Shown: positions 1,551-15,030 of the stretch, piece by piece
Position numbering within the stretch: the first letter of the stretch is position 1
Layout: every line of letters starts with the position of its first letter
Program-made: the position numbers and the translations under genes
Notes under the pieces: generated by a model
Told to the model about the DNA's origin: nothing
Database searches by the model: none
What the model saw: the letters and a program-made list of their open reading frames with translations, nothing else
From: a virus
IMG/VR virus record: IMGVR_UViG_3300035206_000484
Coordinates: 1-22,974 of that record
Strand: one strand, 5' to 3'
Length of the DNA stretch: 22,974 bases

Positions 1551-4382
1551 ATGCGGAACTTCCGTATGACCTTGACAGAGAAAGCACTGACACCAGAAAA
1601 TCTGCAGCGCGACTTTGGGGAAAACAGCAACATCGCCCGCCGGGTTGTGCCAGCGCTCTACAATGCTTTGCATACCACCGACAATCGAAAAGTCCACATC
1701 CTCTTCAGACAATGGCAGCGACAGTTCCACGAAGTATCGGGATATGATGAGTCGAACAGCCAACTGAATGTTACCCAAGTGGCTAAGATGTACGCTGTCA
1801 TTGACCCCTCGCCCAACCTGGAGCACATCTTCTTCGCCATCCACACCTACTATGCCGCCTTCACCAAGTTGCTGGCCCTCCAGGTAGTCCACTACTACTT
1901 GATGCCCAAAGTGGGCACTGGGTTGGCTCAGGTAGCCACTTATGACACCGACAGACTGTGCAACTACCTGATTGATATGGAGCAGGGCGGTCTCTTTGCC
2001 CAGTTTGGTATTCGCAACTTTCTAGAAGGAGATTTCTTCGGCTGGTATCTGGATGTATGGGATGATTCCCTTGACTCTTCCCTGCGTCGCCTGATTACCG
2101 ATCTCTCCAATTACTCATTGGTCACGCTGGACGTGGACCCGGAAGAGACGTGCGACCTCCTCAAACAACTCTACCAGAACCTGATGCCGCGCAAACTGCG
2201 CCACGCCCTGGGTGAGTATTACACACCGGACTGGTTGGCGGAGCGGGTGTTGAACCAGTTGGGTTACGATGGCGATCCTACCGCCCGCATCCTCGATCCA
2301 GCATGTGGTTCGGGCACATTCCTGGTGCTGGCGATCAAACGGGTGCACGAATACGCCGATGAGAAGATGCTGCCACCGGCTCAGGTATTGGAGCAGGTGC
2401 TGAGCAATGTGGTCGGATTCGACCTCAACCCGCTGGCCGTCATCTCATCCCGAACTAACTACCTACTGGCCCTAGGCGACCTGCTGCAACACCGTCGGGA
2501 CGACATCAGTATCCCGGTCTATCTGGCCGATTCCGTCCTCACGCCCTCAATGGAACGCTCGGCAGAAGGGCAATTGAGCCTGATAGATATGCGGTCGGAC
2601 GGCGATGCCGTTCGGCAGCCGGGTTTCGGCTTCCACACCGCCGTGGGGCGCTTCAGCGTGCCGAAATCCCTCGTCAGCGCGGGCTACATTGACATGCTGG
2701 CGAACCTGCTGGAAGAGAGCGTCGAAAACGAACTGAAGCCAGACTTGTTCCGAGAGCGTCTCCTGCACACCTTCCCTCTGGTGACCGAACGGGATGAGGT
2801 AGAGATTAAGGTCGCCGTGTCCCTGTATGAGCAACTGTTGGAACTGGATGCACAAGGAATCAACGGCATCTGGGCGCGCATCATCAAGAACGCCTTCGCT
2901 CCCCTTTTTCAGGACAAATTCGACTTGGTGGCAGGCAATCCACCCTGGGTCAACTGGGAGAGCCTGCCCAATGAGTATCGAGACGATACAAAACCTTTAT
3001 GGGTTCATCATGGCCTTTTCCCCCACGGTGGCATGGACACCATCCTGGGAAAAGGTAAGAAAGACATCTCGATGCTGATGACCTACGTGGCAATGGATAA
3101 CTACTTGAAAGATGGTGGGCGGCTGGGATTCCTCATCACGCAGAGTGTCTTCAAGACTGCTGGTGCAGGTCAGGGCTTCCGTCGCTTCCGCCTAGGCAGC
3201 AATACGCTTGTGTCAGTGGTTGCCGTGGATGATATGGCCAGCCTCAAGCCCTTTGCAGGAGCCAGCAACCGCACGGCTATCGCCATTCTTGAACGAGGAC
3301 GCCGAACAAGGTATCCGGTTCCGTACTCTAACTGGTATAAGCCCGGTGGGGGCAGTGTCATTCCTGAAGATGTGACTTTGGAAGATGTTGTCGGTGAGAA
3401 GATCGCCACCTACCGCCAGTTTGCCGCCGAACCGGTGGATGAGGATGAGCCGACCTCACCCTGGATCACAGGCCGACCAAGAGCATTGCGGGCGGTGAAG
3501 AAGGTGCTGGGCGTGTCGGATTATCAGGCTCATGCCGGGGCTTGCACATGGCTGAACGCCGTTTATTGGTTGGAGATTGTGGCCGGGCGGCCCAACGGTG
3601 TGGCTGTAGTTAGCAACATCACAGAGGGAGCCAAACGCAAGGTCGAGAATGTGCAGGTCGCCATAGAGTCAGACCTTCTGTATCCGCTCCTCAGGGGGCG
3701 GGATGTGAGCCGCTGGCAGGCAGTACCTCAGGCATACATCCTGATGGTACAGGACCCGGAGAAGCGTCGTGGATACGATGAAGACTGGATGAATGTGAAG
3801 TATCCCAAAGCATATGCCTACTTGAAGCACTTTGAGGATATACTGCGAAGTCGGTCGGGTTACCATAGGTATTTCAAAGAAACGGACGCATTTTACTCGA
3901 TGTTCAACATAGGTGACTACACCTTCGCGCCGTATAAAGTGGTATGGACTCGTGTCGCAAAGGACATTGTTGGTGCCGTTATTGACTCCTCTGAGGTAGC
4001 AGGCACTGTGAAAACCATTGTCCCGATCGAGACCGCTGTGTTGGTAGCCTTCGACAATGAAACCGAAGCACATTACTTCTGCTCTGTTCTTAACTCAACA
4101 CCTTGGCGATTCGTAATCGTCTCGACAGCAGTACACAGTACAGGTGGATTCGGGTCACCGAATGTTCTACAAAAAGCTCGTATTCCTCAGTATGAGCCTG
4201 CTATCTCTTTTCACACTCGATTGGCAACTCTCTCCCAGCAGGCGCACGCAGCCACGGCAGCGGGAGACACGGACACGGTGAAAGAGATCGAGGCGGAGAT
4301 AGACCGATTGGCAGCCCAGTTGTGGGGCCTGACGGATGAGGAGTTGCGGGAGATTCAGGAAAGTTTGAAGGAGCTGGGGTGA
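1551..4382 (+). CDS. Adenine-specific DNA methyltransferase, Eco57I/type IIG-like, apparently lacking its nuclease domain
   Basis: This 943-residue protein would transfer a methyl group from S-adenosylmethionine to N6 of adenine in a specific DNA motif. The motifs fall in the order of gamma-class enzymes: motif X as GEYYTP (residues 221-226), motif I SAM-binding LDPACGSGTF (248-257), motif II region GFDLNPLAV (about 285), and catalytic NPPW (463-466). A long C-terminal part (about 600-940) is probably the target recognition domain, ending in a helical tail (LWGLTDEELREIQESL). As I recall the related family, full-length members carry an N-terminal nuclease of 150-300 residues. Here the frame is open upstream only to 1521 and nothing nuclease-like precedes it. 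ATG 1551 has a poor ribosome site and ATG 1566 is an alternative. GAG and CTC are common in this gene, unlike in all its neighbours, which points to recent transfer. The likely job is protecting phage DNA from restriction. A BREX/DISARM-type methylase is an alternative label. Confidence 0.85.
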   Translation: MRNFRMTLTEKALTPENLQRDFGENSNIARRVVPALYNALHTTDNRKVHILFRQWQRQFHEVSGYDESNSQLNVTQVAKMYAVIDPSPNLEHIFFAIHTYYAAFTKLLALQVVHYYLMPKVGTGLAQVATYDTDRLCNYLIDMEQGGLFAQFGIRNFLEGDFFGWYLDVWDDSLDSSLRRLITDLSNYSLVTLDVDPEETCDLLKQLYQNLMPRKLRHALGEYYTPDWLAERVLNQLGYDGDPTARILDPACGSGTFLVLAIKRVHEYADEKMLPPAQVLEQVLSNVVGFDLNPLAVISSRTNYLLALGDLLQHRRDDISIPVYLADSVLTPSMERSAEGQLSLIDMRSDGDAVRQPGFGFHTAVGRFSVPKSLVSAGYIDMLANLLEESVENELKPDLFRERLLHTFPLVTERDEVEIKVAVSLYEQLLELDAQGINGIWARIIKNAFAPLFQDKFDLVAGNPPWVNWESLPNEYRDDTKPLWVHHGLFPHGGMDTILGKGKKDISMLMTYVAMDNYLKDGGRLGFLITQSVFKTAGAGQGFRRFRLGSNTLVSVVAVDDMASLKPFAGASNRTAIAILERGRRTRYPVPYSNWYKPGGGSVIPEDVTLEDVVGEKIATYRQFAAEPVDEDEPTSPWITGRPRALRAVKKVLGVSDYQAHAGACTWLNAVYWLEIVAGRPNGVAVVSNITEGAKRKVENVQVAIESDLLYPLLRGRDVSRWQAVPQAYILMVQDPEKRRGYDEDWMNVKYPKAYAYLKHFEDILRSRSGYHRYFKETDAFYSMFNIGDYTFAPYKVVWTRVAKDIVGAVIDSSEVAGTVKTIVPIETAVLVAFDNETEAHYFCSVLNSTPWRFVIVSTAVHSTGGFGSPNVLQKARIPQYEPAISFHTRLATLSQQAHAATAAGDTDTVKEIEAEIDRLAAQLWGLTDEELREIQESLKELG

Positions 4383-6488: not shown

Positions 6489-8012
6489 ATGCCTATCGAT
6501 GCGGCGCAACTGGCCTATTTGCAACACTTGGCGGCTGAAGACGGGACGAAACAGGGATGGATCAGGACACTTCGGGAATACATGGTCGGCGAACAGCCGG
6601 TGTATCTGACGGATCGCCAGAAGGAATTCATCGGCCTGAAGGAACCTGACGCGAAGAAACTGTTCAGTCATAATCTGTGTCAGTTGGTTGTCAGCGCGCC
6701 GGTCGAACGGCTGGATGTGACAGGGTTCGGGGCTGTGAAGGTTACAGGCGAAGACGGCATGGAATCCGAAGTCGGGGATTCGGTGACTCTGACTAGGCTG
6801 GCGTCGGCCTGGTGGGAACAAAACCGGATGGACGCCGGACAGGACGACGTTTACGAAGCGGCCTGTCGGGACGGGGAAGCCTTCCTGATCGTCGACTGGC
6901 ATGAACTGGAACAGCGGCCCAGGTGGACGGTCCACGAAGCCTATGACGGAACGCAGGGAATGAAGATTCACTATGATCCTGACACGGACGCGCCCCTGTT
7001 CGCTTCGCTTCGCTGGCAAACTTCTGACCCGATGGAAAAGGGAAGCACGGGGAAGACGCGGGTCACACTGTACTTCCCCGACCGGATCGAAAAGTATATC
7101 AGCAAGGGGGGCGACCCCACGTTTGAAGGGGACTGGGACACGATCATCGACTTCGAAGGCGATCCAGACAACGGGATCGAACCGGAACCGTGGCCCCTTC
7201 CCTGGGTCGGGGCTGATAGAAAGCCCCTGGGCCTTCCGGTGATGCACTTCGAAAACCCAGGTGGGTCGGAAATCGCCGACCTGATCCCGATCCAGGACAT
7301 GGTGAACAAGTCTGACCTGGACTTGATCGCGACGGCGGATATGTCGGGCTTCCGTCTTCTGTGGCTTAGTGGCGTCGCCCCGATCATCGATGTGGAAACT
7401 GGGGAAGAAAAGACGCAGACTATCAGTCCCATGACCCTTTTACGGCTGACCGATCCACAAGCGCGGGCCGGCGCGATTGAACCGGCTGATCTGACGAAGA
7501 TGACCGACACAAGCCGGTACTGGATCGAATCGGCGGCGGGCGTGACTCGGACGCCCCACTTCCTTCTTCGCGCGTCAGGGGCGGATCAGCCTTCCGGTGA
7601 ATCGCTGAAGATGCAAGAAACGGGCCTGGTGGCGAAGGTTCTTCGGAAACAGAAGGTCTTCGGGAACGTCTGGGAAGACGCTGTCTATTTGTCGGCGCGG
7701 CTGACAGCCCTGAAAGACCCTGGTGGAATCACTGACGCGCGGCTACAAACACGCTGGGCCGATCCAGAAACCAGGAACGAAGTCGAACAGTCGCAGATCG
7801 CTGAGAGAATGTTCAAGATTGGCGTCCCCCTTCCGACGATCTTGTCAAAAGTCTATCGAATGACCCAGGAAGAAATCGACGAAGTGATGGACATGGTCAA
7901 GACAACACAGGCCGACGAAATCAATCGGGGCCTGGACGAATTTGAATCGCGATTCAATAGCGGACTGATAGGAGAAGGGGCTGGAAATGGGAATAGTAGA
8001 ACTGCGGCCTGA
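6489..8012 (+). CDS. Portal protein (SPP1 gp6-like)
   Basis: This 507-residue protein forms the dodecameric ring at the capsid vertex through which DNA passes. The length, the position right after TerL and the text fit the SPP1-type portal family: an N-terminal YLTDRQKEF then a LFSHNLCQLVVSAPVERL segment, a central DLIPIQDMVNKSDLDLI segment typical of this family, and a late SGESLKMQETGLVAKV helix followed by an acidic, helical C-terminus. ATG 6489 is preceded by AGGAG at about 6474-6478, one of the few GAG words in the backbone. Confidence 0.9.
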   Translation: MPIDAAQLAYLQHLAAEDGTKQGWIRTLREYMVGEQPVYLTDRQKEFIGLKEPDAKKLFSHNLCQLVVSAPVERLDVTGFGAVKVTGEDGMESEVGDSVTLTRLASAWWEQNRMDAGQDDVYEAACRDGEAFLIVDWHELEQRPRWTVHEAYDGTQGMKIHYDPDTDAPLFASLRWQTSDPMEKGSTGKTRVTLYFPDRIEKYISKGGDPTFEGDWDTIIDFEGDPDNGIEPEPWPLPWVGADRKPLGLPVMHFENPGGSEIADLIPIQDMVNKSDLDLIATADMSGFRLLWLSGVAPIIDVETGEEKTQTISPMTLLRLTDPQARAGAIEPADLTKMTDTSRYWIESAAGVTRTPHFLLRASGADQPSGESLKMQETGLVAKVLRKQKVFGNVWEDAVYLSARLTALKDPGGITDARLQTRWADPETRNEVEQSQIAERMFKIGVPLPTILSKVYRMTQEEIDEVMDMVKTTQADEINRGLDEFESRFNSGLIGEGAGNGNSRTAA

Positions 8013-8478
8013 AGAAATCGCGGTAGTGCTGTATAAGAATGGGCAGATCGGGGCGGACAGCGATGAAGTCGCGATCCCGCGCGGAAAGGCCGTGAAGGAA
8101 GCCGTCCTGGTTTACGAAGACGGCGAACGGGTCAGCCTGAAAACAGGGGCGCGGGAACCTGCGCTGAAGAACGTCTGGCGGCTGGAACTGGGGCGATCCC
8201 CGACCGAACGAAAAGTGATCTTCGACGGCCACGACATAAGCGCGATGGTGAAAGCGGTTCATCTTTCGGCTGACATTTACGACCTGACACATCTGGTCGT
8301 CGAGTACGTCCCCGAAGCGATCGAAGTCGTGGGTGAACCGGACGCGATCGAATGGGTCGTGGCCCACGTTCGCACACAGGACGCCCAGGAAGCCCAGGAC
8401 GGCGTTCCCTGGGACGAACCGTCGGATTATGACGAAGATGACGAAGAATCGCTTGTGGGGGTCTTAGGCGTCGCCTGA
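7987..8478 (+). CDS. Hypothetical head-region protein, 163 aa
   Basis: The start is ATG 7987 with a good ribosome site (AGGAGAAGGGG, about 7969-7979), overlapping the portal end by 26 bases. I do not recognise a named family. The middle (VIFDGHDISAMVKAVHLSADIYDLTHLVVEYV, about residues 77-108) is beta-rich and looks like the small beta-sandwich proteins seen between portal and MuF genes in many siphoviruses. The C-terminal 30 residues are strongly acidic (DEPSDYDEDDEESL). A role in the virion or in head assembly is inferred only from position. Confidence 0.7.
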   Translation: MGIVELRPEEIAVVLYKNGQIGADSDEVAIPRGKAVKEAVLVYEDGERVSLKTGAREPALKNVWRLELGRSPTERKVIFDGHDISAMVKAVHLSADIYDLTHLVVEYVPEAIEVVGEPDAIEWVVAHVRTQDAQEAQDGVPWDEPSDYDEDDEESLVGVLGVA

Positions 8479-10663: not shown

Positions 10664-11410
10664 GTGACAAAGGCTGAACTGTTTTACATCGATGGACAGA
10701 AGTGGTGGAAGATCGGGGATGTTGTGTTCCCAGCGATCAGCGGCGGCGACGACCAGGATGATTCCCAGGATGGTGATTCGTCACAGGATGGCGACGACAA
10801 GTCTGACGACAAGTCGGATGACAAGTCGGATGATAAGTCCCAGGGGGGCGAAGATTCCGACGAATGGGGGGATGACTTCGACGCCGATCGTGCGAAGCGA
10901 ACGATCACGAACCTTCGGAAAGAAGCGAAGGACGCGAAGGCTTCTGATAAGAAGGCCAGCGCGCGCCTGAAGAAACTGGAAGACGCTGAAGCCGAACGGA
11001 AGAAGGGTGAACTGTCCGAAACCGATCGCCTGAAGGCGGAAAAGAAGGAAGCCGAAGAAAAGGCGCAGAAGGCGGAAGCGAAGGCTGAATCGACGCTGAA
11101 GCGGCTGTCCGTAGAACAGGAAGCCGGAAAAGCGAACGTGGCCGATTCTGAAGTCGTTATGGGCTTGGTGGACTTCGGCGAACTGACCATCGATGACAAG
11201 GGCGTCGTGAAGGGAGCCGAAAAAGCGGTCGGCGCGCTGGTAAAGAAGTTCCCTTACCTGGTGAAAGGGTCGACTTCGTTCGACACGAATTCCCAGCAAG
11301 GGCGCGGGCGCGGCGGTACGCAGGGCGACAACCTTACAGCGGCGAAGAAGCGGGAACTGAATCAGCGGTTCAAGATGGGAATTCCGGACGAACCGGCTGG
11401 ACAGACCTGA
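10664..11410 (+). CDS. Capsid scaffolding protein
   Basis: This 248-residue protein starts at GTG 10664, 5 bases after GGGGG. Residues 28-70 are extremely acidic and include four tandem DDKS tetrapeptides (residues 44-59). Residues about 72-150 are a long charged coiled coil rich in Lys, Glu and Ala. A short C-terminal domain follows (VMGLVDFGELTIDDKGVVKG, then KKFPYLVKG), typical of phage scaffolds that bind coat protein. The position just before the decoration and major capsid genes fits. No prohead protease is fused to it. The scaffold would organise coat subunits and then leave the prohead. Confidence 0.82.
   Translation: MTKAELFYIDGQKWWKIGDVVFPAISGGDDQDDSQDGDSSQDGDDKSDDKSDDKSDDKSQGGEDSDEWGDDFDADRAKRTITNLRKEAKDAKASDKKASARLKKLEDAEAERKKGELSETDRLKAEKKEAEEKAQKAEAKAESTLKRLSVEQEAGKANVADSEVVMGLVDFGELTIDDKGVVKGAEKAVGALVKKFPYLVKGSTSFDTNSQQGRGRGGTQGDNLTAAKKRELNQRFKMGIPDEPAGQT
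10793..10840 (+). repeat. Four 12-base tandem repeats encoding DDKS
   Basis: Four copies of a GAYGAYAAGTCN unit lie inside the scaffold gene. They differ only at silent third positions (GAC/GAT, TCT/TCG/TCC) and give an acidic flexible spacer. Copy number could vary by slippage between related phages. Confidence 0.8.
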
Positions 11411-11433
11411 TGACAAAATAGGAGACAAACACA

Positions 11434-11859
11434 ATGGCTGATATCACAGTCACGGCGGCGGACGTTCGACCCCTTCAGGGGGCGATCACGCGTCGGTTTA
11501 CGGCTGGGGGTACTGTTGCGATCGGCGACCTTGTCTATGTCGCATCTGACGGCGACGTCGAAAAGGCGGACGCTGACGCGGCGGCTTCCAGCATCATCGC
11601 GGGGGTAGCAGTTGGGACACCTGACGGCGGATCATCGGCTTCGGCTGGTGAGGAAGTCGACGTAGTTGTCTTCGGCCCCGTAACCGGATTTTCTTCGATG
11701 ACAGCTGGCCCCTACGCCTTCGCTTCGACCACGGCTGGCAAGGCTGAAACTGGCGCGCCGGCTGCAGCGTCTGGCGATTACGTGGGGATTCTGGGGATCA
11801 TCATTTCTGCGACCGTCATCCTGGTGAACCCGTTCACCTATGACGTGACAGCGCAGTAA
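11434..11859 (+). CDS. Capsid cement/decoration protein (DUF2190-like)
   Basis: This 141-residue protein is rich in Ala, Gly, Ser, Thr and Val, almost all beta strand. It has the look of the small proteins that sit on HK97-type capsids between scaffold and major capsid genes: RFTAGGTVAIGDLVYVASDGDVEKADADA, repeated SS/AG turns, and a closing VILVNPFTYD. ATG 11434 follows AGGAGAC (about 11420-11426). The family is usually called DUF2190 or head decoration protein. I infer the role from composition, size and place in the operon; no unique motif proves it. Confidence 0.7.
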   Translation: MADITVTAADVRPLQGAITRRFTAGGTVAIGDLVYVASDGDVEKADADAAASSIIAGVAVGTPDGGSSASAGEEVDVVVFGPVTGFSSMTAGPYAFASTTAGKAETGAPAAASGDYVGILGIIISATVILVNPFTYDVTAQ

Positions 11860-11876
11860 GGGAAAGGTGAAATAAA

Positions 11877-12986
11877 ATGGCAACGCTTGGCCCGAACGCC
11901 CTTTTACAGTATGCCCTTCCCACGAACTGGGATGCGGCAACTTTATCGCAGACAGCCCTTCAGAGTGGCGAGACATACGAAGGGCTTCTTAAGGACATAA
12001 CGGCTGGTCTGGCCGCGAAGAACGCTAGTCTTCTTCAGAATCCGCTTCTTATGTCCCTTGTTGGGCTGACGACAGAACAAACCCTGGAATACGGGATCGG
12101 CGTCAGCAACGGTTTTCAGGTGGCGACCGAATTCACGAGGCCCGATTCGGGTCGTGGGGCAACAGTGGGACACATGCTTCCGCTGGATTCCTTCGACCGT
12201 GGTTTCGGCTGGACGTGGATGTTCCTTCGCAAAGCACGGCGAATCTCGATCGATAACGATATTGCTATGGGGATGAACGACCTTCAGAACAAGTTCGAAT
12301 ACCTGATTCTGAACCGGCTGTTCCTGTCCACGGCGGTGACGATCGGGTCTGGTGGAAAGTCTGTTCCGATCGCTGACGGGGGGACGGCTGATTCGGCTTA
12401 TGTCCCCCCCCACGTTCCGGAACGTGAAACCACGACCTTCACTTCGTCCCACACGCATCTTCTACGCTTGGATGGGATCACACAGGCGAACCTGAACACG
12501 GCTGTCAAAACTGTCTGGGAACACAATCACGATGGCCCCTATGATCTTCTGATCGCGGCGGCTGACCTAAGCGATTGGACGAACACGACAAACGTGACCG
12601 GATATGTAGCGCGGTCACAAGACCTTATCTCTTACGGGTCACAGACCGCGACAGCGGTCGGGATCGACCCTGGTGTGATCGGCGTCGTCGAAACTGATTA
12701 CGGGACTTGTCGGCTTCGTGCTACGGCGCGTATTCCCACGGCCTACTGGTCGGTGTATAAGTCTTACGGCTTGCAAGATCAGCGAAATGTTCTCGCCTTG
12801 CGATACAGTGAGGCGATGGGAATTGGTGCGGTTCTTCTAGCGGGCGATCACATCCGCGAATTCCCGATGGAAAACGCTATCATGTTCATGGAAATGGGCG
12901 TGGGAGTGGGCGACCGGACAGCGGCCGCGATCGTGGAAAACGATTCCAGCGGTGACTACGCTTCGCCGACCATCGTCGAAAACTAA
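11877..12986 (+). CDS. Major capsid protein (HK97-fold)
   Basis: This 369-residue protein starts at ATG 11877 after GGGAAAGG. Its length, its place after scaffold and decoration genes, and its text fit an HK97-fold coat protein: a helical N-arm (ALLQYALPTNWDAATLSQTAL), an E-loop-like stretch around TVGHMLPLDSFDRGFGWTWMFLRKARRISIDNDIAMG, a P-domain helix (MNDLQNKFEYLILNRLF), a central A-domain with DLLIAAADLSDWTN, and a C-terminal half with IPTAYWSVYKSYG and LRYSEAMGIGAVLLAGDHIREFPMENAI. There is no obvious prohead-protease cleavage site and no separate serine prohead protease gene in the window. Confidence 0.87.
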   Translation: MATLGPNALLQYALPTNWDAATLSQTALQSGETYEGLLKDITAGLAAKNASLLQNPLLMSLVGLTTEQTLEYGIGVSNGFQVATEFTRPDSGRGATVGHMLPLDSFDRGFGWTWMFLRKARRISIDNDIAMGMNDLQNKFEYLILNRLFLSTAVTIGSGGKSVPIADGGTADSAYVPPHVPERETTTFTSSHTHLLRLDGITQANLNTAVKTVWEHNHDGPYDLLIAAADLSDWTNTTNVTGYVARSQDLISYGSQTATAVGIDPGVIGVVETDYGTCRLRATARIPTAYWSVYKSYGLQDQRNVLALRYSEAMGIGAVLLAGDHIREFPMENAIMFMEMGVGVGDRTAAAIVENDSSGDYASPTIVEN

Positions 12987-13013: not shown

Positions 13014-13166
13014 GTGAAAAGATACAGCCTTCGGGTTGCGCTGGTCGTGGCGGTCATCGTCCTTCTGTTACTGGGCGCGGCGGAAACGATCGATATAACG
13101 ATCGGCGGAACTGACCCAGCGGCTGGTGTAGGCGTGGCTTACATCGTCTATACCAGAGTTCAGTAA
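13014..13166 (+). CDS. Small single-pass membrane protein, 50 aa
   Basis: This gene is easily missed because of its size. GTG 13014 is preceded by GGGGG (13003-13007) in the same arrangement as the terminase and scaffold starts, and the frame closes at TAA 13164-13166. The product begins MKRYSLR, then has a hydrophobic segment of about 17 residues (residues 8-24), then a short exported or cytoplasmic tail (ETIDITIGGTDPAAG) and a second mildly hydrophobic stretch. It could be a membrane protein or have a cleaved signal peptide. It is the first of four small membrane-anchored proteins in this block. Function unknown. Confidence 0.6.
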   Translation: MKRYSLRVALVVAVIVLLLLGAAETIDITIGGTDPAAGVGVAYIVYTRVQ

Positions 13167-13181
13167 CCGACAAACTAATCA

Positions 13182-13207
13182 CAGGGGGGCCATTCAAGGC
13201 CCCCTTG
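13182..13207 (+). terminator. Strong GC-rich hairpin between small membrane gene and adaptor gene
   Basis: CAGGGGGGCC-type sequence at 13182-13191 pairs with GGCCCCCTTG at 13198-13207 (10 pairs including one G-U) around a 6-base loop ATTCAA. No U-tract follows; the next bases are the GGGGG ribosome site of the adaptor gene (13207-13211). It may be a weak terminator, an RNA processing site or a structure limiting translation after the highly expressed capsid gene. Confidence 0.45.
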
Positions 13208-13217
13208 GGGGCAATCT

Positions 13218-13598
13218 ATGGTCGACACGTACGAACTGACGAATGACATTGGAAAGGTTCGCTTCCTGATCCCCGATACCGACATAACCGATGCTGAACT
13301 GTCCGATGCTGAAGTTACGCATCTCCTATCGATCAGCGGCGGAACGGTGAACGCGGCCGCGATCGCTGGGTGTAGATGGCTGTCCAGGAAGTACGCGCAA
13401 CAGATCACACACACAACGGAAGGCGGGGCGCGATTCGACCTGTCGAAGCGGGCTGAAACCTACGCCGCGCGTGCAAAGGAACTGGAAGATCAACTGATCG
13501 GCGGGGCGTCCTTCGTCGGCCTGGATCGGGAAGACGGCTATTCGGAAGAAGCGACTGACTCCGAATACGCGACCCGTCGGGTTTACATCGAAGTGTAA
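13218..13598 (+). CDS. Head-tail connector/adaptor protein (gp6-like)
   Basis: This 126-residue protein starts at ATG 13218 after GGGGG. The opening (TYELTNDIGKVRFLIPDTDITDAELSDAEVTHLL) is the classic start of HK97 gp6/SPP1 gp15-type adaptor proteins: a helix ending in an IPD turn, then an acidic DAELSDAEV helix. A second Ala-rich helix follows (AAAIAGCRWLSRKYA), with a C-terminal coiled segment around ARAKELEDQL. It would form a ring under the portal. Position after the capsid gene agrees. Confidence 0.8.
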   Translation: MVDTYELTNDIGKVRFLIPDTDITDAELSDAEVTHLLSISGGTVNAAAIAGCRWLSRKYAQQITHTTEGGARFDLSKRAETYAARAKELEDQLIGGASFVGLDREDGYSEEATDSEYATRRVYIEV

Positions 13599-13611
13599 GG
13601 GGGGAAAGCGG

Positions 13612-13854
13612 ATGACGACTTCACTTCCTGGCGCGAAATCAATACTAACATCCAGGATGTTCTGGGGGAACCTGATCGTCCTTCTCCTGTGGGCTGGTGA
13701 ATCGACAGGCGTGGTCGACGTTGTCCCTGACGGGGAAAATGTTGACGAAATCACGCTTATCATTGTCACGCTGGTGAATATCATCCTTCGGAAGCGAACA
13801 GATCAGCCGGTCACGTTCAGCCTTCCGAAGTTCGGTCTTCCAAAGAGCGACTAA
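13612..13854 (+). CDS. Holin-like small membrane protein, 80 aa
   Basis: ATG 13612 follows GGGGGG (13599-13604). The text resembles a common class of phage 70-90 residue membrane proteins. SRMFWGNLIVLLLW opens a first membrane segment (residues 17-30), a polar DGENVDE turn follows, and ITLIIVTLVNIILRK forms a second segment (46-60), followed by a basic TDQPV motif and a short soluble tail. Two membrane segments with a polar turn fit a holin, but the position is unusual: it lies between head-tail connector genes and no lysozyme is nearby. A structural or entry-related membrane role cannot be excluded. Confidence 0.6.
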   Translation: MTTSLPGAKSILTSRMFWGNLIVLLLWAGESTGVVDVVPDGENVDEITLIIVTLVNIILRKRTDQPVTFSLPKFGLPKSD

Positions 13855-13886
13855 CACTGATTCAGTAAAGGTAAAAGGCCGTCCTT

Positions 13887-14159
13887 ATGCCGGGCACTGA
13901 AATGGAAGCGCAGATTCGTGACCTTCAAGTGGCCACGAAGCGGCACAGGCTTCTTCTGGAAGGCGGGGATAATGCCATCCCAGGGTATGAAGGGCTTTGT
14001 GCTGTCGCGGCGGCATTGACACAAGACGTGGAAATACTGAAGAAGGAACGCCGCGAACTGGTCGTCTATGCGCGCGGAATTCTCATCGGCCTGGCTTTGA
14101 CTGGGGCCGGTGTGGGAACGACGCTAATCACGGTTCTGACGCGGTACGGGGTCATATAA
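13887..14159 (+). CDS. Coiled-coil protein with C-terminal membrane anchor, 90 aa
   Basis: ATG 13887 has no strong ribosome site; ATG 13902 is an alternative. Residues 5-58 are a charged, heptad-like helix (EAQIRDLQVATKRHRLLLE, later ALTQDVEILKKERREL). Residues 61-84 form one membrane segment (YARGILIGLALTGAGVGTTLI). This coiled-coil plus C-terminal membrane segment is the plan of XhlA-like phage proteins, which work with holins in some lysis systems. The holin-like gene just upstream and the anchored protein just downstream (TAATG overlap) suggest a functional group. Confidence 0.6.
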   Translation: MPGTEMEAQIRDLQVATKRHRLLLEGGDNAIPGYEGLCAVAAALTQDVEILKKERRELVVYARGILIGLALTGAGVGTTLITVLTRYGVI

Positions 14160-14635
14160 TGGGCGAAATGAAAGAAACGGCACGCGAGACATGCGGGACG
14201 CGCTGGGGGAAGGTGATGATTCTGTGGCTGGCCTTCGCCTTCGTCTTCGCCGTGGGCGGAACAGCGGCTGGGGGGTATAGTGTGTTCAAGTGTTGCATCG
14301 AAACGCCCCCCGTGGAATATGCGAACCTGATTCTTCCGGACAGACTGGACCGGGTCTGTCCCGACGACGAAGTCGACTTCCAGGTCGACGTAATAGGGAA
14401 CAGGGCTGAAGCGATCCAGGTCAGTGTTTCGTTTTACGACGTGGCAGAAGGATACACCAGGCTGTCCGGTGTTCCGAAGGGGATGGAAGTCGGCGTCGGT
14501 CGGAAAGTAATGCCCTGGTCTTTCATCGTCCCCGACTTTCCGACGGGACAATACATACGCCAAACGCGGGCGCGGGATCACGGACGATCGGCTGGCTATA
14601 ACATCCCCTTCACGATCATGGAAGGATGTGACTGA
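14159..14635 (+). CDS. N-terminally membrane-anchored protein with beta-rich exported domain, 158 aa
   Basis: ATG 14159 overlaps the preceding TAA (TAATG); ATG 14168 is an alternative start. A basic N-terminus is followed by one strong membrane segment (residues 19-39, VMILWLAFAFVFAVGGTAAGG), then KCC at a possible membrane boundary and a beta-rich domain of about 110 residues (VDFQVDVIGNRAEAIQVSVSFYD, and a WSFIVPDFPTGQY stretch) that resembles an immunoglobulin-like sandwich. The domain would face outside the cytoplasm. The positive-inside rule fits. I do not recognise the family. A spanin, a superinfection-exclusion protein or another membrane accessory protein are possibilities without direct proof. 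Confidence 0.55.
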   Translation: MGEMKETARETCGTRWGKVMILWLAFAFVFAVGGTAAGGYSVFKCCIETPPVEYANLILPDRLDRVCPDDEVDFQVDVIGNRAEAIQVSVSFYDVAEGYTRLSGVPKGMEVGVGRKVMPWSFIVPDFPTGQYIRQTRARDHGRSAGYNIPFTIMEGCD

Positions 14636-15030
14636 TGGCTGATCGCTTCCTGTCCACACAGGACTTGACGAACCTGCGGGCGATCCAGGCAGACGCGCGG
14701 ACGTCCGGCGGGGATACCTGCACGATCCGGCGCGGGACTGTGACATACACTGGCCCAGGGACAGCCGATCCGGTCTTCGCAGACTTGGCGACCGGCGTGA
14801 CTTGCCGCGTGTCCATCCGCGAAGTAACGCCCAGGGAAGCGGCGAATCAGGGTGATGCTGACTTCGTTTGGGGGACGATCGCTTACTTCTTCAGCCTTCC
14901 CTACGACCAGGACATAACACGGAAGGATCGGGTCGTGTTCGGGTCGGAGACTTATGAAGTCCTGGGTGTCCTCAATGTGGGCGCGCTGATGATCGACAAG
15001 GAAGCGATCTGTGTCTGGATCGATGTGTAA
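14635..15030 (+). CDS. Head closure protein (head-tail joining)
   Basis: This 131-residue protein starts at ATG 14635, overlapping the preceding TGA. The organisation is that of SPP1 gp16/HK97 gp7-like closure proteins: an N-terminal helix (LTNLRAIQADARTSGGDTCTIRRG), a small beta barrel with the typical TCRVSIREVTP strand, and a later ITRKDRVVFGSETYEVLGVLN segment, which is the family's usual IxxxDRI...YxVxGV motif. It would plug the connector below the adaptor ring once DNA is packaged. Confidence 0.78.
   Translation: MADRFLSTQDLTNLRAIQADARTSGGDTCTIRRGTVTYTGPGTADPVFADLATGVTCRVSIREVTPREAANQGDADFVWGTIAYFFSLPYDQDITRKDRVVFGSETYEVLGVLNVGALMIDKEAICVWIDV

Follow-up and report, generated by a model that had tools for sequence, protein, structure and literature searches.

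A lysis group at the head-tail junction is already known from phage P2 (NC_001895), in which holin Y, endolysin K, lysA, lysB and lysC lie between the head-completion gene L (adaptor Ad1) and the tail genes R and S. Because P2 has such a group, finding one at this junction is not new, and the surprise is limited, since P2 shows that lysis genes can live at this position. In PBSX, XhlA, the XhlB holin and the XlyA endolysin act together, and all are needed (PMC5589764). Among the spanins (Rz/Rz1; T1 gp11), T1 gp11 is beta-rich (PMC6139136). The locus described here probably resembles P2 in carrying a holin and lysis-type genes inside the late head operon, where those of P2 precede the tail terminator gene R. 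The P2 block also includes an endolysin and Rz-like spanins together with the holin, whereas neither an endolysin nor a recognised spanin was found in the present block. The likeness is one of position. What is new is a variant, a putative holin and XhlA-like pair that occupies this slot of a siphovirus without a hydrolase.

We analysed a linear, incomplete 22,974-bp fragment of an uncultured tailed phage (the window, which is the whole stretch of DNA), containing siphovirus late genes and ending inside a tail gene. By profile matches, its 5′ part encodes terminase, portal, head morphogenesis protein, scaffold, decoration and capsid proteins. On the 3′ side of the block come the genes for head closure, neck and tail completion, then those for two major tail proteins, a tail assembly chaperone and the tape measure, and finally the first part of a tail gene. 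The first-pass annotation had placed four small ORFs with membrane segments in the stretch from the capsid gene to the head-closure gene, which also holds the adaptor gene, and all four are there (Table 1; m50, hol, cc and beta). It had also seen no cell-wall hydrolase, and PHROG and Pfam searches found none among the scanned genes of the window.

Table 1. Features of the block between the capsid and head-closure genes, in window coordinates
Feature	Position	Strand	Basis and remarks
m50, 50 aa, GTG start, one strong N-terminal membrane segment (residues 8-26)	13014..13166	+	codon usage, hydropathy
RNA hairpin	13182..13207	+	folding energy
head-tail adaptor gene, phrog_1732	13218..13598	+	PHROG match; outside the membrane group
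hol, 80-aa two-helix protein, probable holin	13612..13854	+	motif family, neighbourhoods, model
cc, 90 aa, cytoplasmic helical part and C-terminal membrane segment (58-76)	13887..14159	+	hydropathy; XhlA-like in architecture only
beta, 158 aa, N-anchored (segment 19-37), exported beta-rich domain	14159..14635	+	codon usage, hydropathy, low-confidence model
head-closure protein gene, flank of the insertion	14635..15030	+	weak Phage_HCP/DUF6093 match; kept in L084, L088, L090 and L091

The four ORFs very probably represent genuine genes that share one message. With a codon usage model trained on eight core genes of the window, they scored +0.24 (m50), +0.28 (hol), +0.23 (cc) and +0.15 (beta) per codon in their own frames and below 0 in all other frames, the same pattern as known genes. 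The stop codon of cc shares bases with the beta start (TAATG), and that of beta with the closure start (TGATG). The stable hairpin between m50 and the adaptor start (10-bp stem, 6-nt loop, −26.5 kcal/mol, z −3.2) is terminator- or processing-like, without a T-run, and may hold back read-through from the capsid gene, which is highly expressed. A separate observation concerns the 943-aa protein encoded at 1551-4382, which matches the type IIG restriction-methyltransferase model PDLC03630 (1044 bits). As the match begins only at model position 158, this protein probably lacks the N-terminal nuclease part, and its codon usage (−0.04 per codon, compared with about +0.3 in core phage genes) suggests a recent gain as a protective methyltransferase.

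The membrane features fell into line with the earlier descriptions to different degrees. Hydropathy gave one strong segment in m50 (2.72), as described, and one near the N-terminus of beta (2.19), which is followed mostly by strands in a low-confidence model, in agreement with an N-anchored protein carrying a beta-rich exported domain. For hol, described as a two-segment protein, hydropathy was weak (1.22 and 1.43), and the two segments appear as helices (15-31 and 46-62) in an AlphaFold2 model built from 14 aligned sequences (mean pLDDT 64). The C-terminal anchor claimed for cc is present (1.79); the claimed coiled coil is loose, consisting of two short helical stretches with a GGDNAIPGYEG break. 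No such membrane segment was found by hydropathy in the adaptor, neck and tail-completion proteins nearby. We found no relatives of m50 and no PHROG or Pfam match to it.

The gene hol itself gave no PHROG or Pfam match, holin families included, up to E = 1. Its relatives were sought by an in-frame scan of 2.9 million viral contigs for the C-terminal motif N-I-I-L-R-x-x-T-x-x-P-[VI], and 13 of the 20 stretches recovered encode small proteins or protein parts, mostly with S[KR]xxWxN near the start. Nearly all of the relatives collected (n = 14) were found by this motif, which was drawn from the window, and their similarity scores are therefore inflated. S[KR] was present in 13 of the 14 aligned sequences and N20 in all 14, and neither was part of the search motif. 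The family thus delimited has two helices, begins S-K/R-x-x-W-x-N and ends N-I-I-L-R-x-x-T-x-x-P; hol has in common with these uncultured-phage proteins both the motif set and the two helices. It differs from them in an extra C-terminal tail and in being the sole member seen inside a head-tail connector block. A divergent annotated member, UOF79205, occurs in MW202608, an annotated phage reached by similarity to one of the motif-found relatives. The signature S[KR]xxWxN ... NIILRxxTxxP should be usable for recognising small, mostly unannotated phage membrane proteins near endolysins.

The genomic company of this family points to lysis. An endolysin lies within about 1.3 kb of the hol relative in at least 5 of the 14. 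Pfam identified GH25 (1e-32, 6e-41) or GH24 lysozyme domains (2e-24, 7e-26, 7e-14) adjoining or near the relative in L121, L134/L149, L135 and L143/L144. In MW202608 the hol relative is followed by 'hemolysin xhlA', one gene without an annotated function and a PlyB-like endolysin (GH25 by Pfam), with a terminase gene further on; the order in L121 is GH25, a C-anchored helical protein and the hol relative. An XhlA-type C-anchored protein directly adjoins the hol relative in these two loci, with the endolysin close by, and also in L122. When 75 genes near hol relatives were compared with PHROG, nine of the ten most-matched families were endolysins, and three Rz-like spanin families were matched too. 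In the corresponding comparison for 70 genes around 16 control loci, the top 25 contained no lysis family. The controls were chance matches to a mis-framed pattern, of which 16 of 17 were used and a near-duplicate was left out. No recognised lysis gene was found near the relatives in L120, L124 and L126. Members of the family match PHROG holin families weakly (2e-4, 5e-4 and 4e-3). We take hol to be most likely a holin: it is a small phage protein with at least one membrane segment (two predicted helices), and at least five records encode its relatives beside or near endolysins. This assignment rests on the genomic company of the family, because the direct profile test of hol was negative.

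The protein cc resembles XhlA in having a soluble helical part and one C-terminal anchor, and in being encoded next to hol. The arrangement of a two-segment holin-type protein beside a helical C-anchored protein recalls PBSX xhlA-xhlB-xlyA and other XhlA-type pairs. Such a pair occurs with an endolysin at hol relatives, whereas here no hydrolase adjoins hol or cc. In sequence, cc is unlike the XhlA families: it had no Pfam match and no relevant NCBIfam match, and hhalign gave a probability of 0.1% against four XhlA-like neighbours of hol relatives.

Conservation of the block was followed through relatives of the head cassette, which were found via the portal and a three-sequence capsid alignment; a single-sequence capsid search of viral contigs and annotated phages returned no match, and terminase relatives had no other gene in common with the window. 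In L084, L088 and L090 the capsids are 51-56% identical to that of the window, the adaptors are 43-50% identical, and the closure gene is also common to them. In L091 the capsid is 48% identical, and the adaptor and closure gene are less similar. If the group were an established unit of this cassette, it would have been expected to stay together at the same position in relatives. This did not hold up: it is absent from all four, and no relative of hol, cc or beta was found in any of them. A hol profile search of 16 records with capsid, portal or terminase relatives likewise found no hol.

What the relatives have instead varies. The closure gene directly follows the adaptor gene in L091 and L084, and L084 has a 101-aa ORF 3′ of the closure gene. 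In L088, the adaptor-closure junction that holds the group here is occupied by an unrelated 324-aa gene. In L090, a 348-aa gene separates capsid and adaptor, and an HNH nuclease gene lies 3′ of the closure gene (7717-8367, minus strand). By eye, the extra proteins of L088 and L090 have the N-terminal stretch 'FRRG-NIR---LI-D----TA-E-N-L' in common, as though virion accessories of a related kind could be placed before or after the adaptor. The distant relatives L095 and L096 encode anchored or exported repeat or lectin-like proteins 3′ of the capsid. With such differing extra genes in the relatives, the junctions between capsid, adaptor and closure genes form an accessory slot in this group of phages. 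The premise that connector blocks are normally compact thus fits some relatives (L091) and fails for others, whose junctions hold accessory genes.

We consider it fairly likely that the genes at 13612-14635 form an accessory membrane module of the lysis type, inserted in a siphovirus between its adaptor gene and its head-closure gene, and the three-gene group is probably part of the lysis machinery of the phage in an unusual, non-conserved place. The displaced lysis group proposed by the first-pass annotation thereby survives for hol, through the company its family keeps, and for cc by architecture and position only, and gains no support for the spanin-like part. Several points count against the reading as a lysis module: hol is without a holin match, cc does not align to the XhlA set, beta has neither relatives nor spanin hallmarks, no endolysin stands beside the group, some hol relatives are without a recognised lysis gene nearby, and the similarity scores of the motif-found relatives are inflated. 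From its place in the head operon, the group would be expected to be expressed late, along with the virion genes. As a putative small holin, hol, with its two predicted membrane helices and short acidic loop, would accumulate late in infection and permeabilise the inner membrane so that a soluble endolysin could reach the wall, and cc may work with it as an XhlA-like helper. Made from the same message, the anchored and exported beta may affect the envelope or modulate the action of the holin. The missing hydrolase may lie beyond the window end, by analogy with L091: in this 47.6-kb record, the longest of the relatives, a lysis set consisting of a C-anchored helical protein, a holin (phrog_1299, 7e-12) and an Amidase_2 endolysin (1e-12) lies behind the tail genes, which would most likely be the place of an endolysin outside our 23-kb fragment. 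A holin-type gene pair would then have entered the operon for the head-tail connector as an accessory unit, at a site where other relatives have unrelated genes.

The part of the group least explained is beta. We found no relatives of it: tblastn of its domain up to E = 10 returned nothing convincing, a scan for a candidate motif, LCPGDxVxY, gave unrelated proteins only, and the single-sequence model, mostly strands after the anchor (pLDDT 41), was too poor for a fold search. It shares an N-terminal anchor with i-spanins and a beta-rich composition with T1 gp11, but the earlier comparison of this 158-aa protein to spanins was not borne out. As a u-spanin it was rejected, having neither a lipobox nor a C-terminal membrane segment besides its single segment. 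As the i-spanin of a two-component system it was rejected as well; under the criteria used, no lipobox ORF of at least 35 aa, and hence no lipoprotein partner, was found in any frame of the window.

The same accessory slot bears on a reading of the group as a moron unrelated to lysis, in which N-anchored or exported proteins made with the virion proteins would alter the host surface for superinfection exclusion or display. The extra genes of L088 (324-aa), L090 (348-aa and HNH) and L084 (101-aa) are what such a reading would predict at the capsid-flanking junctions, and beta fits the pattern of anchored or exported proteins in L095 and L096. We nevertheless regard it as unlikely, as hol relatives neighbour endolysins and spanins rather than exclusion genes, and PADLOC profiles gave no match to any of the four proteins up to E = 1. 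The earlier suggestion of an entry system or one for excluding rival phages likewise gained nothing in its favour.

The ordinary cassette of L091 raises another explanation, in which hol and cc form a second or decayed lysis set (a duplicate holin or an antiholin pair) that tunes a complete cassette behind the tail genes. The block holds no hydrolase, as this would predict, but the genes are tightly packed with normal codon usage and no decay, and the corresponding region downstream of the window lies outside the record of this phage; we judge this explanation distinctly unlikely. A role in virion assembly or genome entry, for example by aiding assembly from a membrane tether or by supplying a membrane protein for injection, would suit the connector-operon position and the codon overlaps that link cc to beta and beta to the closure gene, but is very unlikely, since four head-cassette relatives have adaptor, closure, neck and completion genes and lack relatives of hol, cc and beta, so that assembly does not need the group. 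Least probable of all, hol, cc and beta might make up a kind of membrane module not described before, with translation of the exported beta domain kept in step with that of the head-closure protein; membrane permeabilisation or a change of host surface would then be tied to the number of finished heads, not to a separate lysis clock.

The relatives of the head cassette showed further differences. More than 5 kb separates capsid and adaptor in L095 (10404-15838), a stretch with genes for an N-anchored protein of 131 aa, for a protein that has a Laminin-G domain and three predicted membrane segments, and for a secreted PTATPTPTNTATAT-rich protein. Such threonine-proline tracts recall secreted proteins of Chloroflexota, which we take to be a hint at the host. 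In L096, the gene directly 3′ of the capsid gene (11176-12759) runs off the end of the locus; its product has at least 528 aa, with an N-terminal membrane segment and D-G-D/L-T-G-D repeats. The head-morphogenesis (MuF-like) protein of the window matches L090 (1469-3388) in two pieces about 750 bp apart, which may reflect an inserted element or domain. In L084 (6717-7532), two tandem decoration-protein genes lie 5′ of the capsid gene, where the window has one.
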